Source of the DNA: Phycisphaerales bacterium
Lineage (GTDB): Bacteria > Planctomycetota > Phycisphaerae > Phycisphaerales > UBA1924
Direction: 5' to 3'
NCBI GenBank assembly: GCA_015487555.1
Contig: WFPK01000096.1
Coordinates: 1-44,886, forward strand
DNA: 44,886 nucleotides
The number at the start of each line of letters is the position of its first letter. Within the stretch, counting starts at the first letter, position 1. Positions 4,810 to 31,052 of the stretch are shown here, piece by piece. The notes beneath the pieces are model-generated. The model did no database searches and had not been told where the DNA came from. It saw only the letters and a list, made by a program, of their open reading frames with translations. The position numbers and the translations under genes were made by a program.

Positions 4810-5654
4810 TGGTGCCAAAACAACCTTCGCAAAATGCTTCCTCATCGAATTGGTTACAGACAGCGATGAACAAGATTGAAGCTGCGTCTGTTTATCTCGC
4901 ATACAGGGTTGTTTGGTTGATGATGGCAGTTCTTAACCCTGGTCACACATTTTCAGAAATCAAAGATGGGAACATGGAATATGAGCAACAAGTTGACGCT
5001 GTAAATGTCTGCGATGCCGATGATCCTCAATTTGCTCTGGATGAGGCTCGCAGATATATGGAGCAAGAAGAGCAGCGGCGGATGGTAATTGACGACAAAA
5101 GCAAGGTAATGTTAACGGTAGCGGCCATTCTTTTCGCAGCCAATGCAGCTGTTCTTTCTAGATTATCGGTTTGGTGGTTTGGGCTGGTTCCTTTGGGTTC
5201 CTTGTTCATGTCCGTTTATTTGACTCTGATGTATTTCCGGACTTACACCTTGCAGGTTATTGATTATTCAAAAATCACATGGACTGATACAAAGGATACG
5301 AAACAGGAGATTGCTCAACAGGAGTTCAATTGCGTAGCAGGTATGGAGTCGCAAAATAGTTTGCGTATCGGTGTCCATAAAGCATCACGGCGTGCACTGA
5401 TTTTGGCTCTGGGATCGACATTTATCGTGGTGTGCATTCAGATGATACAACCACAACCCAAGGATGCTCTCGTGAACAGAATCGAAACCGATGCAGAAGT
5501 CCGCGAGCTACTTCGAGGGCCAGCGGGTTTAGCTGGACCACAAGGGGAAGTGGGGCCGACTGGTCCTACGGGGCCTCAAGGTAGCCGAGGCACACAAGGG
5601 GAGCCGGGTGTATCCAGTGTGGTGCACAAACAGAATTATGAGAGCAGTGATTAG
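4809..5654 (+). CDS. Three-helix membrane protein with C-terminal collagen-like tail
   Basis: A 281-residue protein. After a mildly hydrophobic stretch (about 27-43) and an acidic helix with YMEQEEQRRMVIDDKSK (83-99), there are two adjacent transmembrane segments (about 100-117 and 121-143), a 50-residue soluble loop and a third segment (about 195-213). Residues 237-269 are eleven uninterrupted Gly-X-Y triplets (GPAGLAGPQGEVGPTGP...), a collagen-like sequence expected to trimerise, then a 12-residue end. The charged-helix plus two-TM arrangement recalls small bacterial membrane effectors of the SLATT/Pycsar type, but I see no family signature strong enough to assign it. The TAATG overlap with the ATP-grasp gene shows tight coupling. 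It could anchor, export or sense the modified peptide, or act as the membrane component of a defence-like system. Confidence 0.75.
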   Translation: MVPKQPSQNASSSNWLQTAMNKIEAASVYLAYRVVWLMMAVLNPGHTFSEIKDGNMEYEQQVDAVNVCDADDPQFALDEARRYMEQEEQRRMVIDDKSKVMLTVAAILFAANAAVLSRLSVWWFGLVPLGSLFMSVYLTLMYFRTYTLQVIDYSKITWTDTKDTKQEIAQQEFNCVAGMESQNSLRIGVHKASRRALILALGSTFIVVCIQMIQPQPKDALVNRIETDAEVRELLRGPAGLAGPQGEVGPTGPTGPQGSRGTQGEPGVSSVVHKQNYESSD

Positions 5655-5655
5655 G

Positions 5656-7503
5656 ATGAAGGAAGAGGAGACTAACACAATTTCAAAAACACGGAGAAAG
5701 AGATTGAAAACTCCTCAACAAGTACTTGATCAGCTCTCCATCTTTGATGCGAGAAATGACACTTTTAGTATTCATGATGTTCAATCTGCAATTTCCAGTT
5801 CCATCGAACTAAAAAGCCTTTCTGATGATATCCGTCGCGGGTATTGGGCAGAAGTTGCGGCGTTTGTATTCAACACTCATTCAACTACCGATGGGGGGAG
5901 CCGGCAGGCATATTTTCAACCTATCTTCTCACTTGATGGTGAGGGCGGTACTGCAATCTACAGGCCTGGCACTAAGGAAGTTGATGTTGAAGTGATCAAC
6001 TATTGGGCATCGCGTGCAAGGTCTGTCAAACATCCTACTTTGGCAGCACGCTATGCTGACCTTGCTTGGGATTTGGGCAAGAATATCCCCGGACACAAAA
6101 CAGAAGTAGAGTTTGCACGCTTGGCAATAGATTCGTATATAGCTGCTTTAAGACTGGATGGCGGGGATGCATGGGGCGACAATCGAGACAATGTCGAGCG
6201 AGTGCTGAGACTTTCCATGAGCATTAGTGATATTCAGCGAGTCAATAGTGCAGTAGATGCCATCATTGATTATGCTGATCGAACTTCTCAAGAAGATCAA
6301 ATTGGAACCTATTGCTATCTGTTTGAACTGCTTCTTCCGGCTAAGAAAGGGCCACCTATCTCAGCAGCAAAAGAGAAGATGATTGTTACCATGTTCGAAA
6401 CTCGATTTGGAAAGATGATTGTTCCAGGTAGTCCATACGATGTGGATCCCCATTCTCCGCAAAGCATCGGTCTATTACTAGCCAGCTACTATGGCCGCAA
6501 TAATCGAACCGAAGACCGCATTTACACACTCGTAGAAATTGCCAAAGCATTTGAGCGGCGAGCAAATGTTGGCGACGCAATTTCTGGTGTGATGTTTTTA
6601 AAGGACGCACATCGGTACTATATCGATGCTGGGAAGCGATCAGAAGCCGAGCGTGTTCTCCGTGAGATACAGGCCTTAGCTCCTCAAGCAAAAGAAGGGA
6701 TGGCTTGCCATACATACGAGTATGAAATATCAGAAGAAGACCGAATGGAGTTTTTGAATGGAATGATGGCCGGTGGTGTTGAAAGCGGTTTTCGAGAATG
6801 GACAATACACTTTGTTCCCCGACAAACTGAAATACGGGAATGGAAAGTTAAAAGTGATAATCAGTTTCCATTTCAAGCCATGTTCGCTCCAACGATTCTG
6901 AACGATGAAGGGATTCAAGCCAATGTGGATGACACAAGAGGTGATCCAGATGGGCCAATGATTTGGGAAACTCAGAAGAGAATGGGCTTAAGCACGGTAT
7001 GGATATCGTGGGGGCTAGATCATCTGATCAAAAATGGCCTAGATTCAGAAGCCTTTGTAAAATTTATTAATCCATCTCCAGTGTTTGACCAAGAAAGGCT
7101 TCCCTTGATCAAACAAGGGATAGATGCACATCTTCGAGGTGACTACATTCAGTCAATCCATATTCTGGTGCCGCAAATAGAGCGGGCATTGGTACTGCTT
7201 ATGCTGCTTCTTGGAGAGTCAAATACCAAAACCCACCGTACAGGGCGGGGTGTTCTTCAGTCAATGAACATGAATGATGCACTGGCCAATGATGCAGTTC
7301 GGAATGCTCTCGGCGAGGATTTAAGGATGTACCTTTCGGCTTCGCTTTCCCACCCCAAAGGGTTAAATATTCGAAATGAAGTTTGCCATGGACTTTGGAA
7401 GCCATCGGCATTTACAAAATATGCGAGTGAAAGAGTCATACACACAATGGCCGCTCTATCGCTTATCCGAAAAAGTACTCAGCCAGATGAGGATTCTGAT
7501 TAA
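5656..7503 (+). CDS. DUF4209-containing protein
   Basis: A 615-residue soluble protein with no signal peptide. The N-terminal two thirds are mostly helical, with TPR-like stretches (for example about 130-180 and 290-340). The C-terminal region contains RNEVCHG (573-579), which fits the RNxxxHG signature of DUF4209, preceded by a helix-rich segment from about residue 500 (IDAHLRGDYIQSIHILVPQ). The R-x4-H spacing also recalls HEPN RNase active sites, so an RNA-cleaving role is possible but unproven. I placed the start at 5656, one base after the upstream stop; an ATG at 5638 in the same frame would add six residues and overlap the upstream gene. Neither start has a strong ribosome site. Its position between the membrane protein and the STAND NTPase suggests it is a functional part of the operon. 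Confidence 0.7.
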   Translation: MKEEETNTISKTRRKRLKTPQQVLDQLSIFDARNDTFSIHDVQSAISSSIELKSLSDDIRRGYWAEVAAFVFNTHSTTDGGSRQAYFQPIFSLDGEGGTAIYRPGTKEVDVEVINYWASRARSVKHPTLAARYADLAWDLGKNIPGHKTEVEFARLAIDSYIAALRLDGGDAWGDNRDNVERVLRLSMSISDIQRVNSAVDAIIDYADRTSQEDQIGTYCYLFELLLPAKKGPPISAAKEKMIVTMFETRFGKMIVPGSPYDVDPHSPQSIGLLLASYYGRNNRTEDRIYTLVEIAKAFERRANVGDAISGVMFLKDAHRYYIDAGKRSEAERVLREIQALAPQAKEGMACHTYEYEISEEDRMEFLNGMMAGGVESGFREWTIHFVPRQTEIREWKVKSDNQFPFQAMFAPTILNDEGIQANVDDTRGDPDGPMIWETQKRMGLSTVWISWGLDHLIKNGLDSEAFVKFINPSPVFDQERLPLIKQGIDAHLRGDYIQSIHILVPQIERALVLLMLLLGESNTKTHRTGRGVLQSMNMNDALANDAVRNALGEDLRMYLSASLSHPKGLNIRNEVCHGLWKPSAFTKYASERVIHTMAALSLIRKSTQPDEDSD

Positions 7504-22105: not shown

Positions 22106-22238
22106 CAATGGTTCTCCTGATGGGGGCAAAGAGATCATACGGGGCTTGGAGGCTCACGCCCAACGGGCGATATGGTCGATATATTCGATTGATCCGAGTG
22201 ATCAAAGTTGAATCGCTGCATTGTTCTGGAGTGCGCCT

Positions 22239-24416
22239 ATGCCTTCTCATCTGACCAGTTCTCGCCCCCCGATGCTCGATCGCATCCCTTTCCAAGAACG
22301 CTTGGACATCCTCACCAAGAACCTCGCCCGCATTGATGTCCCCGGCATGTCGCCCGAGCGTCTTGCGCATTGGCAAACATGCGCCAAAGAGGTCGCCCAC
22401 TCCGAGGAAATCCGCTCGTCGCATGAGAAGTTGATCGCGCCCTTGCTCGCCAAGTTGAGTGCGCAAAACATGGCACCGATCATACTCGAAGGCGTCGATC
22501 CGCCTTGGATGCTCAAGTCACTGATTGATGCGCCGCCGCCCAAGGGTTCCTTGGGGTTTCGTCAGCGGGTGCTCGTGGTGCAGTCCGATTGGAACGAGTT
22601 TTTCGACGGGCTTGCATGTGTCGATCTTGGCGACGGGCTTGGCGACGGGCTTGGTGATCCGCGTTTCGTCTGGTTCGTCGGGCAGGATGCATCGGATCGG
22701 TTGATCGAGTGGGTCGATGCCCGGCTCGACGACGCGCCGCCTGCGATGGCGGTGCAGTGCCCGGCGGTGCGTAAGAAAACATCGCCCGATGCCCCCGGGC
22801 TCATCCGCGAGATCGACGCGCGGTGGATGCGCCATGCCCAGGAGCTCAAAGCCAAGGTCGCCGGGCGAAGGCTGCGCGATCGGCAATGGTGGGCCAACCG
22901 GTTCGAGCACATCGGGCACATCGAGCGATCTGGCCCTGCCAGTGACCCCCTGCGGGTGCTGATCCCGGTCTCGCGATACACAACCTACCTCAAGCACGCA
23001 GCAGCCGACCTTGAAGCTTCATTCATCGCATCGGGATGCCAATGCCGGGTGCTGATGGAAACCGACGATTCAACGATTATGTCTGAGAACTCGATCATGC
23101 GGGCGATCGACGAGGTTGATCCAGACCTGATCGTCTCGATCAACTACACACGCAGTGCCCTTGGAGCCGATATCCCCCAAGACATCCCGCATGTGTGCTG
23201 GATTCAAGACGCGATGCCTCATCTGTTTGATTCCAAGATCGGGGCGGCGTTGGGTGTGTTCGACTTTGTTGTCGGGATGGTGAACTCTGAGCTGATCGAG
23301 AAGTATGGGTATCCCGAGATACAGACCAGGTGGATGCCGATGGTTGCGTCACGGGCAAAGTTTGGCACCCAATCAATCGCTGAGGCGTTTGATTCAGAGA
23401 TTGCATGGGTGACGCACCAGAGCGAGCACCCTAATGTGTTCCGTGATCGGATGATCGAGGAGATGGTTCGCAATGCGCCCGATGCTTCAGGCAAGTTCTC
23501 CAAAGTGCTCGAGGAAGTTGAATCGGTGGTGAGCACCAAGCCTGGTGCATCTGTGTTCCACGAGATTCGTCAGTTTGTCGACAATGCGTTCTTCCCCGCA
23601 GGCATCCCCGAGGGCGCTTGGGGTTTGCGGTCCAATCTGCTTCAGAGCATGGTTATTCCTTACGCGGAGCGTGTTTTTCGTCATCAGGCTGCCCAGTGGG
23701 CAGCCGATATCGCCACACGACGAGGGTGGCGGTTTAGGCTCTATGGCAATGGTTGGGAAAACCACCCCCAGCTCAGTGGATTCGCAGCCGGTCAACTCGA
23801 ACACGGGGATGCACTCAGCGCGTGCTATCGTCATTCGGTCGTTCAGCTCCACGCATCGATCAATCAGGTGACTCATCAACGCGTCAGCGAGTGTTTGCTC
23901 TCGGGCGGGTTGCCGTTGTGCAGAGTCACCCGTGAGGCGTTTGGCCTTGCTCAGATGAAGTTCATTGACCAGTGCCAGCGGGAGAACATCGGCTCGCTGG
24001 TCGATGCGCCATCCTCAGCCGAGGGGCCTGGTCAGAAACGATGGCGTGTTGAGATCGAGGCTTGTGATCTGATCAAAGAGCTGATGAATGATTTGCATCG
24101 GCTCGACTTGTGCGACGACGCCGAGCTTGCCATGGGTTGGATATCATGGGATGTAGAGCGGTTTGCCAAAGCACAAGAGGCATTGAGCAACCCAAACGAA
24201 CAAGGAAACATGGAGATGTTCGCGTCCATCAAAGACCTCTTTTTTACCAGCGAATCGCAGCTCGAATCCCTCATCGAGCGGGCAATCAATGACCGGACAT
24301 GGCGACGAGATCGCATCGAATCAGCAAGGAAGACGCTGCCCGAGGCACTCACATTCGATGGGTTCGTCAAGCAGGTGCTTGATCTGATCGGATCGAGGCT
24401 TGGGCAAAACAAGTAA
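22239..24416 (+). CDS. CgeB-like glycosyltransferase, large
   Basis: A 725-residue soluble protein. The C-terminal half looks like a GT-B fold of the CgeB/group 1 type: RFRLYGNGWENHPQLSGF, then HSVVQLHASINQVTHQRVSECLLSGGLPL, matching the nucleotide-sugar binding and E-x7-E area of that group. The middle, from about residue 240 (LRVLIPVSRYTTYLKHAAADLEASF) to 380 with DIPHVCWIQDAMPHL, is the likely acceptor-side Rossmann domain. The N-terminal 230 residues are unassigned and contain a GDGLGDGLGDP stretch coded by a short tandem repeat. The start has GGAG 7 bases upstream. It heads a run of surface-glycan genes, and its product probably adds a sugar to a cell-surface or flagellar glycan. Donor and acceptor are not visible. 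Confidence 0.7.
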   Translation: MPSHLTSSRPPMLDRIPFQERLDILTKNLARIDVPGMSPERLAHWQTCAKEVAHSEEIRSSHEKLIAPLLAKLSAQNMAPIILEGVDPPWMLKSLIDAPPPKGSLGFRQRVLVVQSDWNEFFDGLACVDLGDGLGDGLGDPRFVWFVGQDASDRLIEWVDARLDDAPPAMAVQCPAVRKKTSPDAPGLIREIDARWMRHAQELKAKVAGRRLRDRQWWANRFEHIGHIERSGPASDPLRVLIPVSRYTTYLKHAAADLEASFIASGCQCRVLMETDDSTIMSENSIMRAIDEVDPDLIVSINYTRSALGADIPQDIPHVCWIQDAMPHLFDSKIGAALGVFDFVVGMVNSELIEKYGYPEIQTRWMPMVASRAKFGTQSIAEAFDSEIAWVTHQSEHPNVFRDRMIEEMVRNAPDASGKFSKVLEEVESVVSTKPGASVFHEIRQFVDNAFFPAGIPEGAWGLRSNLLQSMVIPYAERVFRHQAAQWAADIATRRGWRFRLYGNGWENHPQLSGFAAGQLEHGDALSACYRHSVVQLHASINQVTHQRVSECLLSGGLPLCRVTREAFGLAQMKFIDQCQRENIGSLVDAPSSAEGPGQKRWRVEIEACDLIKELMNDLHRLDLCDDAELAMGWISWDVERFAKAQEALSNPNEQGNMEMFASIKDLFFTSESQLESLIERAINDRTWRRDRIESARKTLPEALTFDGFVKQVLDLIGSRLGQNK

Positions 24417-24448: not shown

Positions 24449-26011
24449 TCAGCCTTGGCGCGACGAAGCGAGGATGACATCGGCCAAGGGGGTGTCCTGG
24501 GTCGGGTAGAGCCGATGCAAACGCACACCCAGCGACTCGATCGCTTCTCTCTTGGCCCAGATCGTGTCTTCATAAATCCAGCTCGAAATCACCAGGTCGG
24601 TCGCGCCCAGTTCCGGGATCATACTCGATGGGTAGATCGGATATCCGATGAGCCCGGTGCCCGCTTTGGATGGATCATCATCGACGATGCCCACGATTTG
24701 CGCAGGCGAGTTGTTGATCGCTGCGCTGACATCTTTGGTGTGCTGACCCGAGCAGAAAATCAGCACCTTCTTCGCTGCCAGCGAGTCAAGCATCGCTTCC
24801 ATCCGCTCGATCGCATCGGGCGGGGTTGACCCATCGAGCTCGGCTTCTTTAGCGCTATACGATGCGCGGCGATGATCGGGCCAAGGGCGATCCGGGAGGG
24901 AAGTGACCCGCTCGATCAACGCAACAAGTTTGTCAATATGCACAGGGACGCTGTGGTTTTTGAGTGCGAGCTGGTGCGCGTTGCGAGCAATCGCGGGCAT
25001 GTCCATCCCCATGACCGACACAATAGCATCGCAGAGCCCAGAAGCGATCTGCTCGACCGGCGTGTTCCACTGGGTATCAACGCTCATCCCCGTGTGGCCA
25101 TCGATCACCGCATCGCCCGCGCCCGAGCGCACCCGCGTTACCACCGGGATGCATCCTAGCGAGAGCGCTTCGAGCATCGCTACGCTTTGTCCCTCGTACC
25201 GCGAGGGCAAAACCCACACATCTGCCCAGCGCAGGTGCGTCTGGACCGCTTCAGGCGCCACCGCGCCGATGCACTCGATCCGATCATTGGAAACGATCGA
25301 CCGGAGGAGTTGTTCCCGCTCAGGACCATCGCCAACAATCCGGAACTCGAAATCAACCCCACGCTCACGCAGCTCGTCGGCAAGGTGCGGCAGCACACTG
25401 ATACGCTTTTGTTGCTCATGCAGACGACCTGTATACACCATCCGCAATGCCCGATCGACCATCGGGGTGCGCTCTGGGCAGCGAGCTTCGACCTCGACGC
25501 AATAGGGGATATGAACAACATCCCCAGCTCGTTTGGGCATGGTTCGCTTGGCGATGGATTCGAGCTCCCTGCTCACCGGAACAATCGCATGAACCATCGG
25601 CTCGTAGCGTTTGGCAACCGCGATGTCGTACTCGTTGTCCGAATGAATCCACGAAGCGACTCGGACAAGGTGGGGGTGTTGCTGAGCGATGATTGCGATC
25701 GCGCCGTGACAATCGCCGTGGAGATTGGGCGAGACGAGCACAGGCTGTCCGGTGAGTGCATGCATCTCCTCGATGGCTTTGAGATAAACCGGGACAAGCG
25801 CATCGAGACATCCACGCAGATGATGGATCGATGGCGCATCGCGCACAACGCCAACAACAAAGGGCTCAAGAAATGCGGGTACGGATTCACCCGGGCGGGT
25901 ATGGACAATCAATCCCGCGGGGATGGATCGTTCTCGCAACCCTTTGATCGCGTGCATCGCCCAGGTGGTGACGCCGCTGACGCAGAGGTGATCTGGTAGA
26001 ATAATCAGCAT
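24449..26011 (-). CDS. GT4-family glycosyltransferase with C-terminal Rossmann-like module
   Basis: A 520-residue protein. Residues 1-395 are a GT-B glycosyltransferase of family 4: N-terminal LPDHLCVSGVTTW, VVYTGRLHEQQKR-type hinge (MVYTGRLHEQQKRI), FRIVGDGPEREQLL, and PSRYEGQSVAMLEALSLGCIPVV with the E-x7-E donor-binding pair. It transfers a hexose from a nucleotide sugar to a growing glycan at the cytosolic membrane face. The last 110 residues are a separate module: VLIFCSGQHTKDVSAAI, GIVDDDPSKAGTGLIGYPI, LVISSWIYEDTIW, LHRLYPTQD. Related modules occur in the next two genes. The start at 26011 has GGAG 11 bases upstream. It is divergent from the following gene across 115 bases that should hold both promoters. 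Confidence 0.8.
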   Translation of the reverse strand: MLIILPDHLCVSGVTTWAMHAIKGLRERSIPAGLIVHTRPGESVPAFLEPFVVGVVRDAPSIHHLRGCLDALVPVYLKAIEEMHALTGQPVLVSPNLHGDCHGAIAIIAQQHPHLVRVASWIHSDNEYDIAVAKRYEPMVHAIVPVSRELESIAKRTMPKRAGDVVHIPYCVEVEARCPERTPMVDRALRMVYTGRLHEQQKRISVLPHLADELRERGVDFEFRIVGDGPEREQLLRSIVSNDRIECIGAVAPEAVQTHLRWADVWVLPSRYEGQSVAMLEALSLGCIPVVTRVRSGAGDAVIDGHTGMSVDTQWNTPVEQIASGLCDAIVSVMGMDMPAIARNAHQLALKNHSVPVHIDKLVALIERVTSLPDRPWPDHRRASYSAKEAELDGSTPPDAIERMEAMLDSLAAKKVLIFCSGQHTKDVSAAINNSPAQIVGIVDDDPSKAGTGLIGYPIYPSSMIPELGATDLVISSWIYEDTIWAKREAIESLGVRLHRLYPTQDTPLADVILASSRQG

Positions 26012-26126
26012 AAAAGAATATCTCCGCTGTATGTGCCAAACCCTGTGAGCGATTGTATCGTTTGCAAACGACTACGCCAAGGCGTTTGCACGCCAGAAAC
26101 AAATCATTTCGATCGCTTACCTGTCT

Positions 26127-28190
26127 ATGTCCATTTGCCCGAGCAAACCCGCTGCCTTGTTCATCGCTCACGGAGCCCGAGCATATCACTTGAGCGCAGT
26201 TGCCCAAGCATTGGCAGATCGCCAATGCGAAGCACGCTTCGAGACACTCCAGACGGGGGCATCCATCCGCCTGACAAGCAGAATCGTGCAAGAGGCGAAT
26301 GTGATTGTTCACGCCGATACGGTGGGGCTTGATGCGATCACAATCCACAACACGCCGATCAAACCAACCCGGCCAATCCTGCTTCAAATGGACGGCATAC
26401 TCGAATACGCCAACACCTTCCTCAATACCAACACCGGCAATCAATTCCTCCAACCCGCCCCTGCCGATGCCATCTTCGCTTCTGGAGTCCATGACCGATC
26501 CATTCTGCGCGCGCTGGGCAATCGGGCGATCGCAACCGGGCTGCCAAGGCTCGGTGGGTTCGCCGATCGTGTGCGCACACAACGCGTTGATTCACGCCAA
26601 GGGATACTCGTCGCCACGGCCAATCAGCCTGCGTTTACTCCAGGTGCCAAGCGACGATTACTTGCTTCGCTCAGAAGCATCAAAGACCACGCAGGCGATC
26701 GAAACCTGCCGGTCCGCTGGCGCATCGAATCGGCAATCGCCTGCGAGCTGGGCGTTGAGAACGATGAATCCGAGCTTGCCGAGTCATTGGCCCAGGTGCG
26801 TGGCGTCCTGACCAGCGCCTCGACGCTGGCGATTGAATCCATGATCGCCAACAAACCCACCGCGATCATCCATCCCCATCCCTGGCCTTTGTGGATTCCG
26901 TGCGCATGGCGATACAGCACCGACGCGACAGATGGGATCGCCCAAGACCAGGCAACGATCGACGCCCTGCAAGGCAAAGACCGCCGGGCCAACGCAGCAG
27001 CTGCCGATTCGATCGCAAAGATACGCGCCCAGACAACGCCAATCGCCACCCGATCAGCCAATGAGCTCTTCGACGCACTTCTCGACCCTGCTCCCGAGCT
27101 GATGGCCTTTCAAGAACGCATCGTCCAGAGCTACACCCGCCCGAACCCCGCAAACCGGGTGGCGCGGATCATCGAACGGGTCGCATCATCGAGCACGCTG
27201 CACCCAGAAGCCAACCAACCCTCCGTGCGCATCCCAGAGCCCAAAGGGCAACTCATCGAAGCTTTCGACACGATGTACAAAGATCAATCATCCAAGATCA
27301 CCATCGTCGCAAGCCGAGCGCCCACACCCGAGCTTGCAACACTCGCCGAGCACCGGTTCGATCAGATCGAAAGGTTCATCGTGCTCGCCGAGCCCAACAA
27401 CGCCACGCTCCTGGGCATCCCCGCTGTCAGCGATGCCCACATCGAAAAGCTGGTTTCACCCAAGAACCCCGTCCTGATCGCGCCCCAGGGTGATTGCGAG
27501 CTGATCGTCGCGTCGCGCGCTTTGCGCTCATCAGGAATCCACCCCCTCGTCTGCCCAGACCCAAAGGCCATCGAGCATATCGACGCGGTGATCGACGCTG
27601 CCCAGGCAGCGCTCGCCCAAGGCCCAGTGCGCACCACACTCCAAGAAGCATCCATCGAAGGCGCCGAGCACTGTTCACCCGCTCAAATCCTCCGAGGTAA
27701 TCGCCCTGCGATGCTCGTGCTCAAAGGCGACGAGATCGACTTCGAGCTCTACCGCCGATCGCGCCCCTGGCGAGATCAGGGAACCATCGTCCACTCGCTC
27801 CGCTGGAGCGATGCCGAGCTTTCTTCGCCCGAACGCTTCGCAGCGATGGTCCAAACCCTTCACAACCAACCCTACGCAATCTATGGCGGCGGGCTCCACA
27901 CACGCCGACTCCTCAAGTATTCACAGATCACAAACAAGCCTGCCATGATCCTCGATGACCTTGTGCCTATCGGTTGTGACGATGTGTTTGACACCATCCC
28001 GATGATCCATCCGCAGGACCCCCGCACGCGCGAAGCCGGGACACTGATTCTCTCTTCGCTTGTTCATGAGGAATCGTTATGGGAAAAATCTGCCCATTTT
28101 CGCCGCATCGGGATAGGCGTATATCGGCTCTATGTGCCGTTGGCAAAGATCGAGCAGCGATCCGACGAGCCCAATGCGGGAATCTGCTGA
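26127..28190 (+). CDS. Large unknown surface-glycan protein with C-terminal Rossmann-like module
   Basis: A 687-residue soluble protein. The N-terminal 330 residues look like a capsule or CDP-glycerol glycerophosphotransferase-type GT-B fold: ILLQMDGILEYANTF, ILVATANQPAFTPGAKRR, then GVLTSASTLAIESMIANKPTAIIHP, which is the usual phosphate-binding block of that fold. A variable middle follows, and the C-terminal 110 residues repeat the module of the neighbouring glycosyltransferase: YAIYGGGLHTRRLLK, MILDDLVPIG, LILSSLVHEESLWEK, GVYRLYVP. The start at 26127 has no clear ribosome site. It probably makes or modifies a surface polysaccharide with its neighbours; the reaction is not visible. The family assignment is by fold-level motifs only. 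Confidence 0.6.
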   Translation: MSICPSKPAALFIAHGARAYHLSAVAQALADRQCEARFETLQTGASIRLTSRIVQEANVIVHADTVGLDAITIHNTPIKPTRPILLQMDGILEYANTFLNTNTGNQFLQPAPADAIFASGVHDRSILRALGNRAIATGLPRLGGFADRVRTQRVDSRQGILVATANQPAFTPGAKRRLLASLRSIKDHAGDRNLPVRWRIESAIACELGVENDESELAESLAQVRGVLTSASTLAIESMIANKPTAIIHPHPWPLWIPCAWRYSTDATDGIAQDQATIDALQGKDRRANAAAADSIAKIRAQTTPIATRSANELFDALLDPAPELMAFQERIVQSYTRPNPANRVARIIERVASSSTLHPEANQPSVRIPEPKGQLIEAFDTMYKDQSSKITIVASRAPTPELATLAEHRFDQIERFIVLAEPNNATLLGIPAVSDAHIEKLVSPKNPVLIAPQGDCELIVASRALRSSGIHPLVCPDPKAIEHIDAVIDAAQAALAQGPVRTTLQEASIEGAEHCSPAQILRGNRPAMLVLKGDEIDFELYRRSRPWRDQGTIVHSLRWSDAELSSPERFAAMVQTLHNQPYAIYGGGLHTRRLLKYSQITNKPAMILDDLVPIGCDDVFDTIPMIHPQDPRTREAGTLILSSLVHEESLWEKSAHFRRIGIGVYRLYVPLAKIEQRSDEPNAGIC

Positions 28191-28359
28191 GCACCGGCGT
28201 GCTTGCAATGCGTTGTTGTTGAGGTGCTCAGGCGATCTGAGTCCTGACCTTGGGGGCTTTCAATCGGCGATATCGCTTCGCATGCCCCATACGCGGGTGG
28301 TGATCGAGTTTTTGAAGTTCGATGGGCAACTTCTTCGTTTTTCGACTATGCTTTTTCTT

Positions 28360-30342
28360 ATGACACCCCATGCCAACCCGGTCGATCCCAAACTCGCAGA
28401 AGACTTCGCCAATCGCATGCGAAACCCCGGCTCACCTGTTCTCCCTCCCCTCCAAGCCCTTCGTAATCAGGTCTTTGAGCGCACCGCATCCATGCTCAGC
28501 GCCCAAGGCATTACCGACATCGCCCTCTTTGGCGCAGGCCGTCACACCCGCCCGATCGTTCGTCAACCTTGGATACGCTATGGCATTGCTGTGCGTGTGA
28601 TTTTCGACGACCATCCGATTCAATCCGCGATGGGAGGCGTCCCCATTGCCAAACCTTGCCCTGACAATCTCCCCGACGCTGTCGGCGCCATCGTCATCAG
28701 CTCCGAGTGCTACGAGCGCCAGCTCGATTGTCGAGCCCGCCAGGTCTTTGGCGGGCTCGATCTCCCCATTGTCAAGCTCTACACCACCGACGATGCACCC
28801 TACCAGGCTGACCAAACACTCGAACGCTTGGCAGGGCTCTCGAATCTCACCCAAGACGATGCCCGTTGGCTTGTCGAGAACCGAGGCGAACGCCACGACG
28901 CACTCCTCCCCATGCTTCCGCCTGCGCGCACCGAGCTTCATATCCGTCGATACGAACTCGCTGGGGATTTGATCGGCTGCATCGGAGCAACCGCTGTTGC
29001 CGATCTCGCTTGTGGCACAGGGTACGGCTCAACCATCCTCGCGCACAATCACGACATCACCTATGTGGGCGTTGATATCGACCTTCCAACGATTCAATAT
29101 GCCCAACGACGCTATGGATCACCAACCCGTCAGTTTCATTGTGCCTCAGCCATTGAACTTCCCATCGACGACAATGCGGTCGATCTCATCGCCAGCTTCG
29201 AGACCATCGAGCACATCGAGCAGACTTCTGAGCTCTGTGCTCAATATGCCCGAATCCTCAAACCCGGCGGGCTCCTCGTGGTGAGCACCCCCAACAAGCT
29301 CGGCCCGACCCCGCACCATGTCCACGATTGGGACCTCGAAGAGTTCATCAATGCCCTCGAGTCTCGGTTTGAAATCATCGAGCTCATTGCCCAGCTCCCC
29401 ATCGACGAAGTCTTTGATCCTCATCTCCCTCCGGGTATGTGGAGGATTGATCGAAACCGAGTCAATCGAGAAGCCTTTGATCAAAGCATGCCTCGCCCTG
29501 ATTTTCTCTTGGCCATCGCCAAGCACCCGGGCGCATCGGTGCCCAAGCTTATTGAGCCGGACACCAACGAGATCACAACTTTGCCGAGTGCAAATGATGA
29601 AGTCGTCATTGAAACCAAGCATGGGCCCATCTGCTTCTATTGCCCCGGGGGGGCCGCCGGCTGGCGAGCCCAAACTCTCCTTACCAAAGAGCCTGAGACA
29701 CTCGATTGGATCGACCAGTTCGATCAAGGGGATATCTACTGGGACATCGGTGCAAGCACGGGTCCCTATGTCATGTACGCAGCAGCTGCTGACAAAGCGG
29801 CCCAGATCCTTGCCTTCGAACCCTCACCCTGGAGCTGGCATGTCCTCGCAGAACAGATCAGACGCTCGGGGCAGAGCGATCGAATCAAGGCCTATCCTGT
29901 CGCGGTCAATGCCGGTGCCGATTCGGGAACCCTGCACATGCGCAACCCATTTGCAGGCGGCGCAGGATCGAGTTTCGGCGAACCGATCGACGAATCCGGG
30001 AAAATCTTTACGCCAACATTCGCCCAAGGGGCCATCGGGATATCCATTGACGAGCTCGTCGAAGTGTTCAATCTCCCAGCCCCCAACCGGATCAAGATCG
30101 ATGTCGATGGAATCGAAGAGCAGATTCTCACCGGAGCAAGGCGGACACTTCTCGATCGCAAACTCAAATCAGTTTCTGTCGAGATTGACTCGTCCCGCAA
30201 GGACCTGGTCGATTTGGTCGCAGGGAGGATGCAAGAGGCCGGGCTTGTTTATCAGCAGATTCGTCAGCCGAGGGCGCAACAAGAAGATCGTCCCAAGACC
30301 ATCGAGAACTTTGTGTTTACACGAAACGGAGCACACCCATGA
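28360..30342 (+). CDS. Three-part protein: Rossmann-like module, SAM methyltransferase, FkbM methyltransferase
   Basis: A 660-residue fusion. Residues about 35-155 hold the same module as the two previous proteins, here at the N-terminus (IALFGAGRHTRPIV, VIFDDHPIQSAMGGVPI, IVISSECYERQL, VKLYTTDD). Residues about 205-350 are a class I SAM methyltransferase (VADLACGTGYGSTIL, YVGVDIDLPTIQYAQRRYG, FETIEHI). Residues about 455-640 are an FkbM-family methyltransferase (DIGASTGPYVMYAA, AFEPSPWSW, RIKIDVDGIEEQIL). Such enzymes O-methylate sugars of surface glycans. The start at 28360 is chosen by family start; one at 28348 would add four residues, and no ribosome site decides between them. The stop overlaps the next gene by 4 bp (ATGA). 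Confidence 0.78.
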   Translation: MTPHANPVDPKLAEDFANRMRNPGSPVLPPLQALRNQVFERTASMLSAQGITDIALFGAGRHTRPIVRQPWIRYGIAVRVIFDDHPIQSAMGGVPIAKPCPDNLPDAVGAIVISSECYERQLDCRARQVFGGLDLPIVKLYTTDDAPYQADQTLERLAGLSNLTQDDARWLVENRGERHDALLPMLPPARTELHIRRYELAGDLIGCIGATAVADLACGTGYGSTILAHNHDITYVGVDIDLPTIQYAQRRYGSPTRQFHCASAIELPIDDNAVDLIASFETIEHIEQTSELCAQYARILKPGGLLVVSTPNKLGPTPHHVHDWDLEEFINALESRFEIIELIAQLPIDEVFDPHLPPGMWRIDRNRVNREAFDQSMPRPDFLLAIAKHPGASVPKLIEPDTNEITTLPSANDEVVIETKHGPICFYCPGGAAGWRAQTLLTKEPETLDWIDQFDQGDIYWDIGASTGPYVMYAAAADKAAQILAFEPSPWSWHVLAEQIRRSGQSDRIKAYPVAVNAGADSGTLHMRNPFAGGAGSSFGEPIDESGKIFTPTFAQGAIGISIDELVEVFNLPAPNRIKIDVDGIEEQILTGARRTLLDRKLKSVSVEIDSSRKDLVDLVAGRMQEAGLVYQQIRQPRAQQEDRPKTIENFVFTRNGAHP

Positions 30343-31052
30343 CCACCATCGAGCAGCATCAAAGCACCGATCACCTCGCCAGCGCCGAGTATGCCCTTCG
30401 CAACACACCAGTCAATCATTGGCCATTTGTCCATACACTGGTTCGCCCGATCCTTCCGGAAAACTACTACCAGCAGATGATCGACGCTTTCCCCGAAGAC
30501 GAGGTCTTCGTTCCCCTCAGCGAGTACCATCGGGATCGAGGCGCTGTCTTCCTCACCCACCGAGACGCAGGCGATGATGATCTCGATCGACTCGACGCCC
30601 ATCAGCGGATCTTCTGGGAAGGGTTTATCGAGACCCTCGGCAGCACTCGCTTCCGCAAGGCCTTGCTCGAAACCATGGGAGGCCCAGAGCTGGTTGAGTC
30701 TTACCTCCATCGCACCCGATCACTCATCCATCTCTCGCTCGATCGCTTTGGCTACCAGATTCGCCCGCACACCGATATCGCCCAAAAAATCGTCACCGCC
30801 CTCTTCTATCTTCCAGATCCTAACGATCAATCACTCGAAAGCTTTGGCACCAGTGTGCTCGTCGAAAAAGAAGGTGTGGAGGAAGCCGATCCGCATGATT
30901 GGAACAAATACGAATGTGCATTCACTGCACCTTTTATCGCCAACTCGCTCTTCGTTTTCAAAGTCGGTGATGCTTCATGGCATGGCGTCAAACCCATCGC
31001 CCAACCAATCCGCAGGCGAAGCGTACAATGCTTTATCGTCCTTGACGAATAA
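30339..31052 (+). CDS. 2OG-Fe(II) oxygenase-like protein
   Basis: A 237-residue protein. H144 and D146 in RPHTDI with H215 in SWHGV form the usual iron-binding triad of 2-oxoglutarate dioxygenases, and R225-227 can bind the 2-oxoglutarate carboxylate. The central FYLPDPNDQSLESFGTSVLV matches the double-stranded beta-helix core. Proteins of this kind hydroxylate sugars, lipids or proteins. Translational coupling to the fused methyltransferase suggests that it acts on the same surface glycan. The start overlaps the upstream stop by 4 bp. Confidence 0.75.
   Translation: MTTIEQHQSTDHLASAEYALRNTPVNHWPFVHTLVRPILPENYYQQMIDAFPEDEVFVPLSEYHRDRGAVFLTHRDAGDDDLDRLDAHQRIFWEGFIETLGSTRFRKALLETMGGPELVESYLHRTRSLIHLSLDRFGYQIRPHTDIAQKIVTALFYLPDPNDQSLESFGTSVLVEKEGVEEADPHDWNKYECAFTAPFIANSLFVFKVGDASWHGVKPIAQPIRRRSVQCFIVLDE

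Follow-up and report, generated by a model that had tools for sequence, protein, structure and literature searches.

The described domains closest to the one treated here are the N-terminal domain of PglD/NeuD/PerB acetyltransferases (PglD_N, PF17836), the CoA_binding_3 domain (PF13727) of WbaP-type phosphoglycosyl transferases and PglF-type dehydratases, and the C-terminal domain of sugar C-methyltransferases (Methyltransf_14, PF08484). In PglD-type enzymes a second aspartate contacts the uracil, a first aspartate and a serine contact the ribose, and the pyranosyl ring lies against His15 of PglD, whose place is taken by Cys13 in the enzyme from Psychrobacter (PMC8040287). The WbaP domain is stabilised by uridine mono-, di- and triphosphate (UMP, UDP, UTP) and supplies most of its enzyme's dimer contact, and its authors assign to it nucleotide sensing and dimerisation (PMC10942596); for EpsZ, modelling places at this domain both dimerisation and its promotion by a response regulator that activates the enzyme (PMC12802240). 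Here we describe a module of about 100 residues, akin to these domains, that occurs at the C-terminus of a GT4 glycosyltransferase, at the C-terminus of a 687-residue protein and at the N-terminus of a double methyltransferase, all encoded on one contig of a Phycisphaerales bacterium (WFPK01000096.1, here C96, part of a 2.64 Mb draft genome; its whole 44,886 nucleotides were analysed and are called the window).

A sequence-only reading of the window had placed a shared block at these three protein ends, and both BLASTP and shuffling confirm the placement. The pairwise BLASTP expect values (E) are 5e-9 between the GT4 and 687 copies, 1.8e-5 between the GT4 and methyltransferase copies, and 0.015 between the 687 and methyltransferase copies, while the local alignment scores of the three pairs exceed those of 1000 shuffles by 15, 13 and 9 standard deviations, with no shuffle reaching them. 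Judged by these alignments, the three segments are homologous. A six-frame search with the three-copy profile found no further convincing copy in the window; a fourth copy of the same genome lies on contig C101, inside a Methyltransf_24 protein.

The consensus of the module begins with hALYGAGxHTRxLL, continues about 20 residues later with DD and then with G-x-P-V and VVISSxxxE, and ends with RLY. Over 71 copies (68 proteins, from the window and 40 stretches taken around matches in other genomes) the key residues are conserved at 92% and 99% (the two G), 89% (H), 85% (T), 97% and 96% (the two D), 89% and 82% (the two S), 87% (E) and 90% (Y). The motif proposed earlier needs correction in some details: the GT4 copy reads C-S-G-Q-H-T, with C in place of the first G, and the 687 copy has neither the G before P (it reads D-T-I-P) nor the final D.

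The AlphaFold2 (AF2) model of the GT4 copy (65 sequences; predicted local distance difference test, pLDDT, 91.1; predicted template modelling score, pTM, 0.84) is a Rossmann-like domain. Its best matches among solved structures are the C-terminal domains (about residues 301-410) of the sugar C3-methyltransferases KijD1, TcaB9 and MtmC (Z 9.9-11.1, root mean square deviation 3.0-3.3, 103-105 residues aligned); 3nkl reaches Z 10.6, PerB 8.2-8.6 and the WbaP accessory domain 8.3. In the model of the 687-residue protein (31 sequences; pLDDT 87.5; pTM 0.83) the intact C-terminal module, where pLDDT is mostly above 90, has its strands and helices in the order seen in the GT4 copy; in this respect the two predicted structures compared agree. 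Searched against the PDB, the sequence profile of the module finds 3nkl (1e-6), PerB (1e-4), the FkbM methyltransferase 2py6 (0.024) and Rex (E 1.4). Profile-profile alignment with hhalign, using family alignments made from this phylum, gives 97.6% for Methyltransf_14, 97.9% for PglD_N and 97.6% for CoA_binding_3, against 0.6% for an S-adenosylmethionine-dependent methyltransferase domain, 0.8% for a GT4 domain and at most 1.0% for three column shuffles. Given this similarity and the low controls, the module belongs to the superfamily of these three families, in which it is a family without a name. The kinship proposed in the sequence-only reading, to the nucleotide-binding end of C-methyltransferases and to PglD, is thus borne out by structure comparison and by profile-profile alignment with controls. 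Literature searches for the module or its kin, which did not extend to most subscription papers, found no description of the module.

Each of the described relatives shares some features with the module and differs in others. The Methyltransf_14 domain, the best structural match over the full length of the module, is confined to the end of one enzyme type, has K for the module's H (20/21) and lacks the DD; none of the window copies attains its cut-off (16.8-17.0 bits for the GT4 copy vs 23.5), and the genome itself holds no match to this family at E<=1e-5. PglD_N has G-x-G-x-H and the first D in common with the module, and the acetyltransferase family TIGR03570 (PglD/NeuD/PerB) is matched by 28 of 65 module copies at E<=0.01. 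However, PglD_N carries other residues in place of SS-xxx-E and Y and is followed by a left-handed beta-helix acetyltransferase domain, which is missing after the module; no acetyltransferase family appears in the window proteins, and the Pfam tally of the 68 proteins has none among its listed families. The PglD_N cut-off of 23.4 bits is not reached by the GT4 copy (19.6-19.7 bits), the other two window copies have no score, and among the full module proteins 4/68 match at E<=0.001, of which L038 passes the cut-off (25.3 bits). CoA_binding_3 resembles the module in its accessory role on glycan enzymes, in G-x-P-V and in a DD present in about half of its sequences, whereas it has no H-T and a different set of partners. 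It matches no window protein at E<=1 and none of 65 copies at E<=0.01, while one true match lies elsewhere in the genome, on contig C92. The N-terminal part of the Methylobacillus flagellatus FkbM methyltransferase 2py6 is a domain of the same kind, likewise placed ahead of the methyltransferase, but the match is weak (0.024 by sequence profile, 1.6e-3 by Foldseek), and we know of no published function for it.

Eleven columns reach a conservation of 80% or more over 65 copies, and 10 of these sit 1-6 residues past the end of a strand: G22, G24, H26 and T27 after strand 17-21, D46 and D47 after strand 40-45, S78, S79 and E83 after strand 74-77, and Y104 after strand 99-101. Apart from G58, a glycine ahead of a strand, none of the eleven was seen away from strand ends. 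Judged by secondary structure in the model, the conserved positions lie along the edge at which a Rossmann-like sheet usually binds its ligand, and the module's H and DD align with the motifs through which PglD contacts its UDP-sugar. From the strand-end conservation, the PglD equivalents and the roles described for WbaP and EpsZ, we infer that the module is a nucleotide- or nucleoside diphosphate (NDP)-sugar-binding accessory domain with a regulatory or anchoring role, a reading to which we give a probability of about 0.6. The ligand sensing suggested earlier is plausible on the first two of these grounds. A nucleotide or nucleotide sugar would be held in the cleft of the strand ends, where G-x-G-x-H-T, D-D, S-S-x-x-x-E and Y follow strands 1, 2, 4 and 5, respectively; the DD would grip base and ribose, and the H would lie beside the sugar. 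The module may thereby hold the NDP-sugar substrate or product of whichever glycan enzyme carries it; alternatively, it may adjust the activity of its partner to the nucleotide pool, possibly through subunit pairing.

Several observations weigh against this reading. The loop serine of PglD is replaced by G in the module, the second D of the DD is a D in just 4/17 PglD_N sequences compared, and SS, E and Y are unconserved in Methyltransf_14, PglD_N and CoA_binding_3 alike. Three GT2-linked copies (L044:6323-7936, L046:8590-9876 and L055:7017-8231), excluded from the module alignment A3, lack the H-T: they retain G-x-G and DD, and the H-T region reads GAGD-F/L-A, a loss that could possibly reflect a change of ligand. 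Furthermore, a degenerate copy inside the 687-residue protein has lost the ligand motifs and kept the fold, so that a different role, perhaps a structural one, falls to at least this copy. The ligands of Rossmann-like folds are diverse, and the structure list that contains the sugar methyltransferases also contains succinyl-CoA synthetase (Z 9.4) and the NAD-binding Rex proteins (Z up to 9.6), one of which Foldseek ranks first (E 3.9e-5), with 3nkl second.

The prominence of Rex in these lists would fit a redox or energy sensor that binds NAD(H) as Rex does, or a remnant of a dehydrogenase, and G-x-G with an acidic residue after strand 2 is usual in NAD binding. We regard this as improbable, since in the PDB profile search the sugar-nucleotide enzymes lead and Rex has the poor value given above, the form G-x-G-x-x-G is not retained (H and T occupy the fifth and sixth places), and wherever Pfam recognises a partner, it is a glycosyl-, methyl- or sulfotransferase. 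That the degenerate copy of the 687 family retains the fold without the motifs would also suit a purely structural appendix, a folded spacer without ligand. Such a spacer would not need G, G, H, T, D, D, S, S, E and Y at 82-99% over 71 copies on unrelated enzymes, and we consider this explanation very unlikely.

The module recurs among relatives of the window's genome. Of 61 genomes, made up of that genome and 60 relatives, 27 match the three-copy alignment at E<=0.01, namely the genome itself, 12/20 of the same genus, 12/16 of other genera of the family and 2/24 of other families of the order. A larger profile matches 58/392 genomes of the phylum at E<=1e-5, the weaker of which may mix true copies with PglD_N or CoA_binding_3 domains; the ten with values below 1e-15 are all from the window genome's own family or order. 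Module places are clustered: in the search of the 61 genomes, 42/68 lie within 10 kb of another, a count that includes two copies inside one protein (e.g., in G051) and that contig breaks can only lower. Over 500 random placings the mean was 0.69, and no placing gave more than 5. This repeated and clustered occurrence supports the earlier suggestion of a domain common to the enzymes of one glycan pathway. Two tandem modules stand at the C-terminus of the protein L060:8647-10593, and L075:5853-10616 likewise has two.

Other phyla were covered by a few contig and plasmid searches. A profile search of genome contigs with the three-copy alignment returned only three loci, in Phycisphaerales. One plasmid search query gave no match, and another found a locus on an Azospirillum oryzae plasmid (L106:11755-18420) with three adjacent module proteins (E 4e-13, 4e-9 and 2e-12), one of them a B12-binding radical SAM protein; a query made from this locus matched itself alone. 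Further radical SAM proteins and a carbamoyltransferase are also present at the Azospirillum locus. A flagellin glycosylation island was considered and rejected: in a search for flagellin genes across 30 genomes, no listed place came within 10 kb of a module place, and in the window's genome these genes are on contigs C24 and C90, while the modules are confined to C96 and C101.

Scanned with Pfam, the 68 module proteins show GT4 models in 21, GT2 in 9, Methyltransf_24 in 11, Methyltransf_11 in 8, FkbM in 4, TylF in 2, CmcI in 2 and a sulfotransferase in 1, tallies that overlap and are not additive. The module is C-terminal in glycosyltransferases and internal in Methyltransf_24 proteins, and most methyltransferases of the window's type carry it at the N-terminus or close to it. 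In a tree of 69 copies, built on 110 columns and with its deep forks unresolved, ten partner classes need 13 changes vs 43.8 with shuffled labels. Each window copy falls in a starred clade with copies of the same enzyme from other genomes, apart from its neighbours. Since these are three different starred clades, a recent duplication inside the locus is ruled out. The partner-wise tree indicates that the fusions are old and that each copy followed its enzyme.

The sequence-only reading had also proposed a docking domain that brings the enzymes together, with copies pairing mutually or with one scaffold protein so as to hold the pathway in a complex. The genomic clustering would suit such a role, as would the placement of copies at different ends of unrelated enzymes and the dimerisation described for the WbaP and EpsZ domains. 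The tree speaks for something else: grouping by partner and not by locus favours ligand binding tuned to the partner over one shared docking interface, and partner-wise descent is what would be expected if the module serves its own enzyme's substrate or control, less so for an interchangeable connector. By secondary structure, moreover, the near-invariant residues, all but one glycine at strand ends, line the ligand side and not the outer face, and 3 of the 27 matching genomes have a single copy, where drafts may hide others. We therefore hold docking to be unlikely, and the module resembles a plug-in sensor or a holder of substrate more than it does a generic glue. In all, the observation made from the letters of the window is real, correctly placed and mostly correctly read.

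The 687-residue protein reaches no Pfam family over its cut-off and no NCBIfam family. In structure comparison its GT-B domain is nearest to non-hydrolysing UDP-GlcNAc 2-epimerases (Z 19.5, root mean square deviation 3.4, 291 residues aligned), with TarL at Z 16.6. Between this domain and the intact module lie the degenerate module and a half module, both missed in the sequence-only reading. They were detected by hhalign with a module profile built without the 687 family (the GT-B part, as control, gives 0.7%); the degenerate module is further supported through an intermediate, L057 431-523 (E 3e-11), and the evidence for the half module is weaker than for the other copies. Two longer relatives, L206 and L207 (1132 and 1150 residues), have the same GT-B part, then a GT4 domain, recognised by Pfam in L206, and then degenerate and intact modules. 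Beside these, the 687-residue protein looks like a form that lacks the GT4 domain; L057, which retains a short stretch similar to the beginning of this domain, suggests that it was lost.

Table 1. Positions of the module copies and of the proteins that carry them in the window
Feature	Position	Strand	Basis
GT4 glycosyltransferase, 520 residues	24449..26011	-	Glyco_trans_1_4, E 1.2e-23
Module copy 1, C-terminus of GT4 glycosyltransferase (residues ~399-508 of 520)	24488..24817	-	BLASTP, AF2 model
687-residue protein: GT-B domain, degenerate module, half module, intact module	26127..28190	+	
GT-B domain, residues 5-357 of 687-residue protein	26139..27197	+	Model, structure comparison
Degenerate module, residues ~372-475, GxGxHT and DD lost	27240..27551	+	hhalign 97.8%, E 6.5e-13; strand/helix order in model
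Half module, residues ~508-558, only second half of fold	27648..27800	+	hhalign 91.6%, E 8e-7; hidden Markov model 0.0015
Module copy 2, intact, C-terminus of 687-residue protein (residues 566-675)	27822..28151	+	BLASTP, AF2 element order
Double methyltransferase: module, Methyltransf_11 (E 6e-20), FkbM (TIGR01444, E 1.8e-16)	Open reading frame 28132-30342, likely start 28360	+	
Module copy 3, N-terminus of double methyltransferase	28468..28800	+	BLASTP; profile E 7.8e-24

The methyltransferase gene probably starts at Met77 of its open reading frame (Table 1), because relatives place the module likewise, at about residues 45-141. Its end overlaps by 4 bases a gene at 30339-31052 for a 2-oxoglutarate-Fe(II) oxygenase-like protein (PF13640, E 3e-6), probably part of one operon with it. 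Beside the GT4 gene, 22221-24416 encodes a 731-residue protein without module, with only a sub-threshold match to Glyco_trans_1_2 (E 0.015). Elsewhere in the window, PDC-S39, a candidate defence family, is matched (E 9e-34) by a DUF7380 and DUF4209 protein (5608-7503). Next to this protein are an ATP-grasp-like protein and one of 1429 residues in which NACHT and HEAT score below threshold.

The module itself is new, while the kind of domain is known, and what distinguishes it is its spread over many glycan enzymes. A more speculative extension, which we put forward with considerable doubt, is that of a lineage-wide plug-in sensor, in which one NDP-sugar or nucleotide pool would gate several surface-glycan steps in Phycisphaerales through a shared domain carried by enzymes of unrelated chemistry (GT4, GT2, GT-B epimerase-like, methyltransferases and a sulfotransferase), with the Azospirillum locus as an independent case. 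The work on WbaP recently gave an accessory domain of this superfamily a role in nucleotide sensing, in one enzyme type; if the reading proposed here is true, a module on many enzyme types would extend such sensing from a gatekeeper enzyme to whole glycan pathways. In addition, H-T, DD, SS-xxx-E and Y provide a handle for annotating planctomycete glycan loci, where Pfam detects the module in few proteins.

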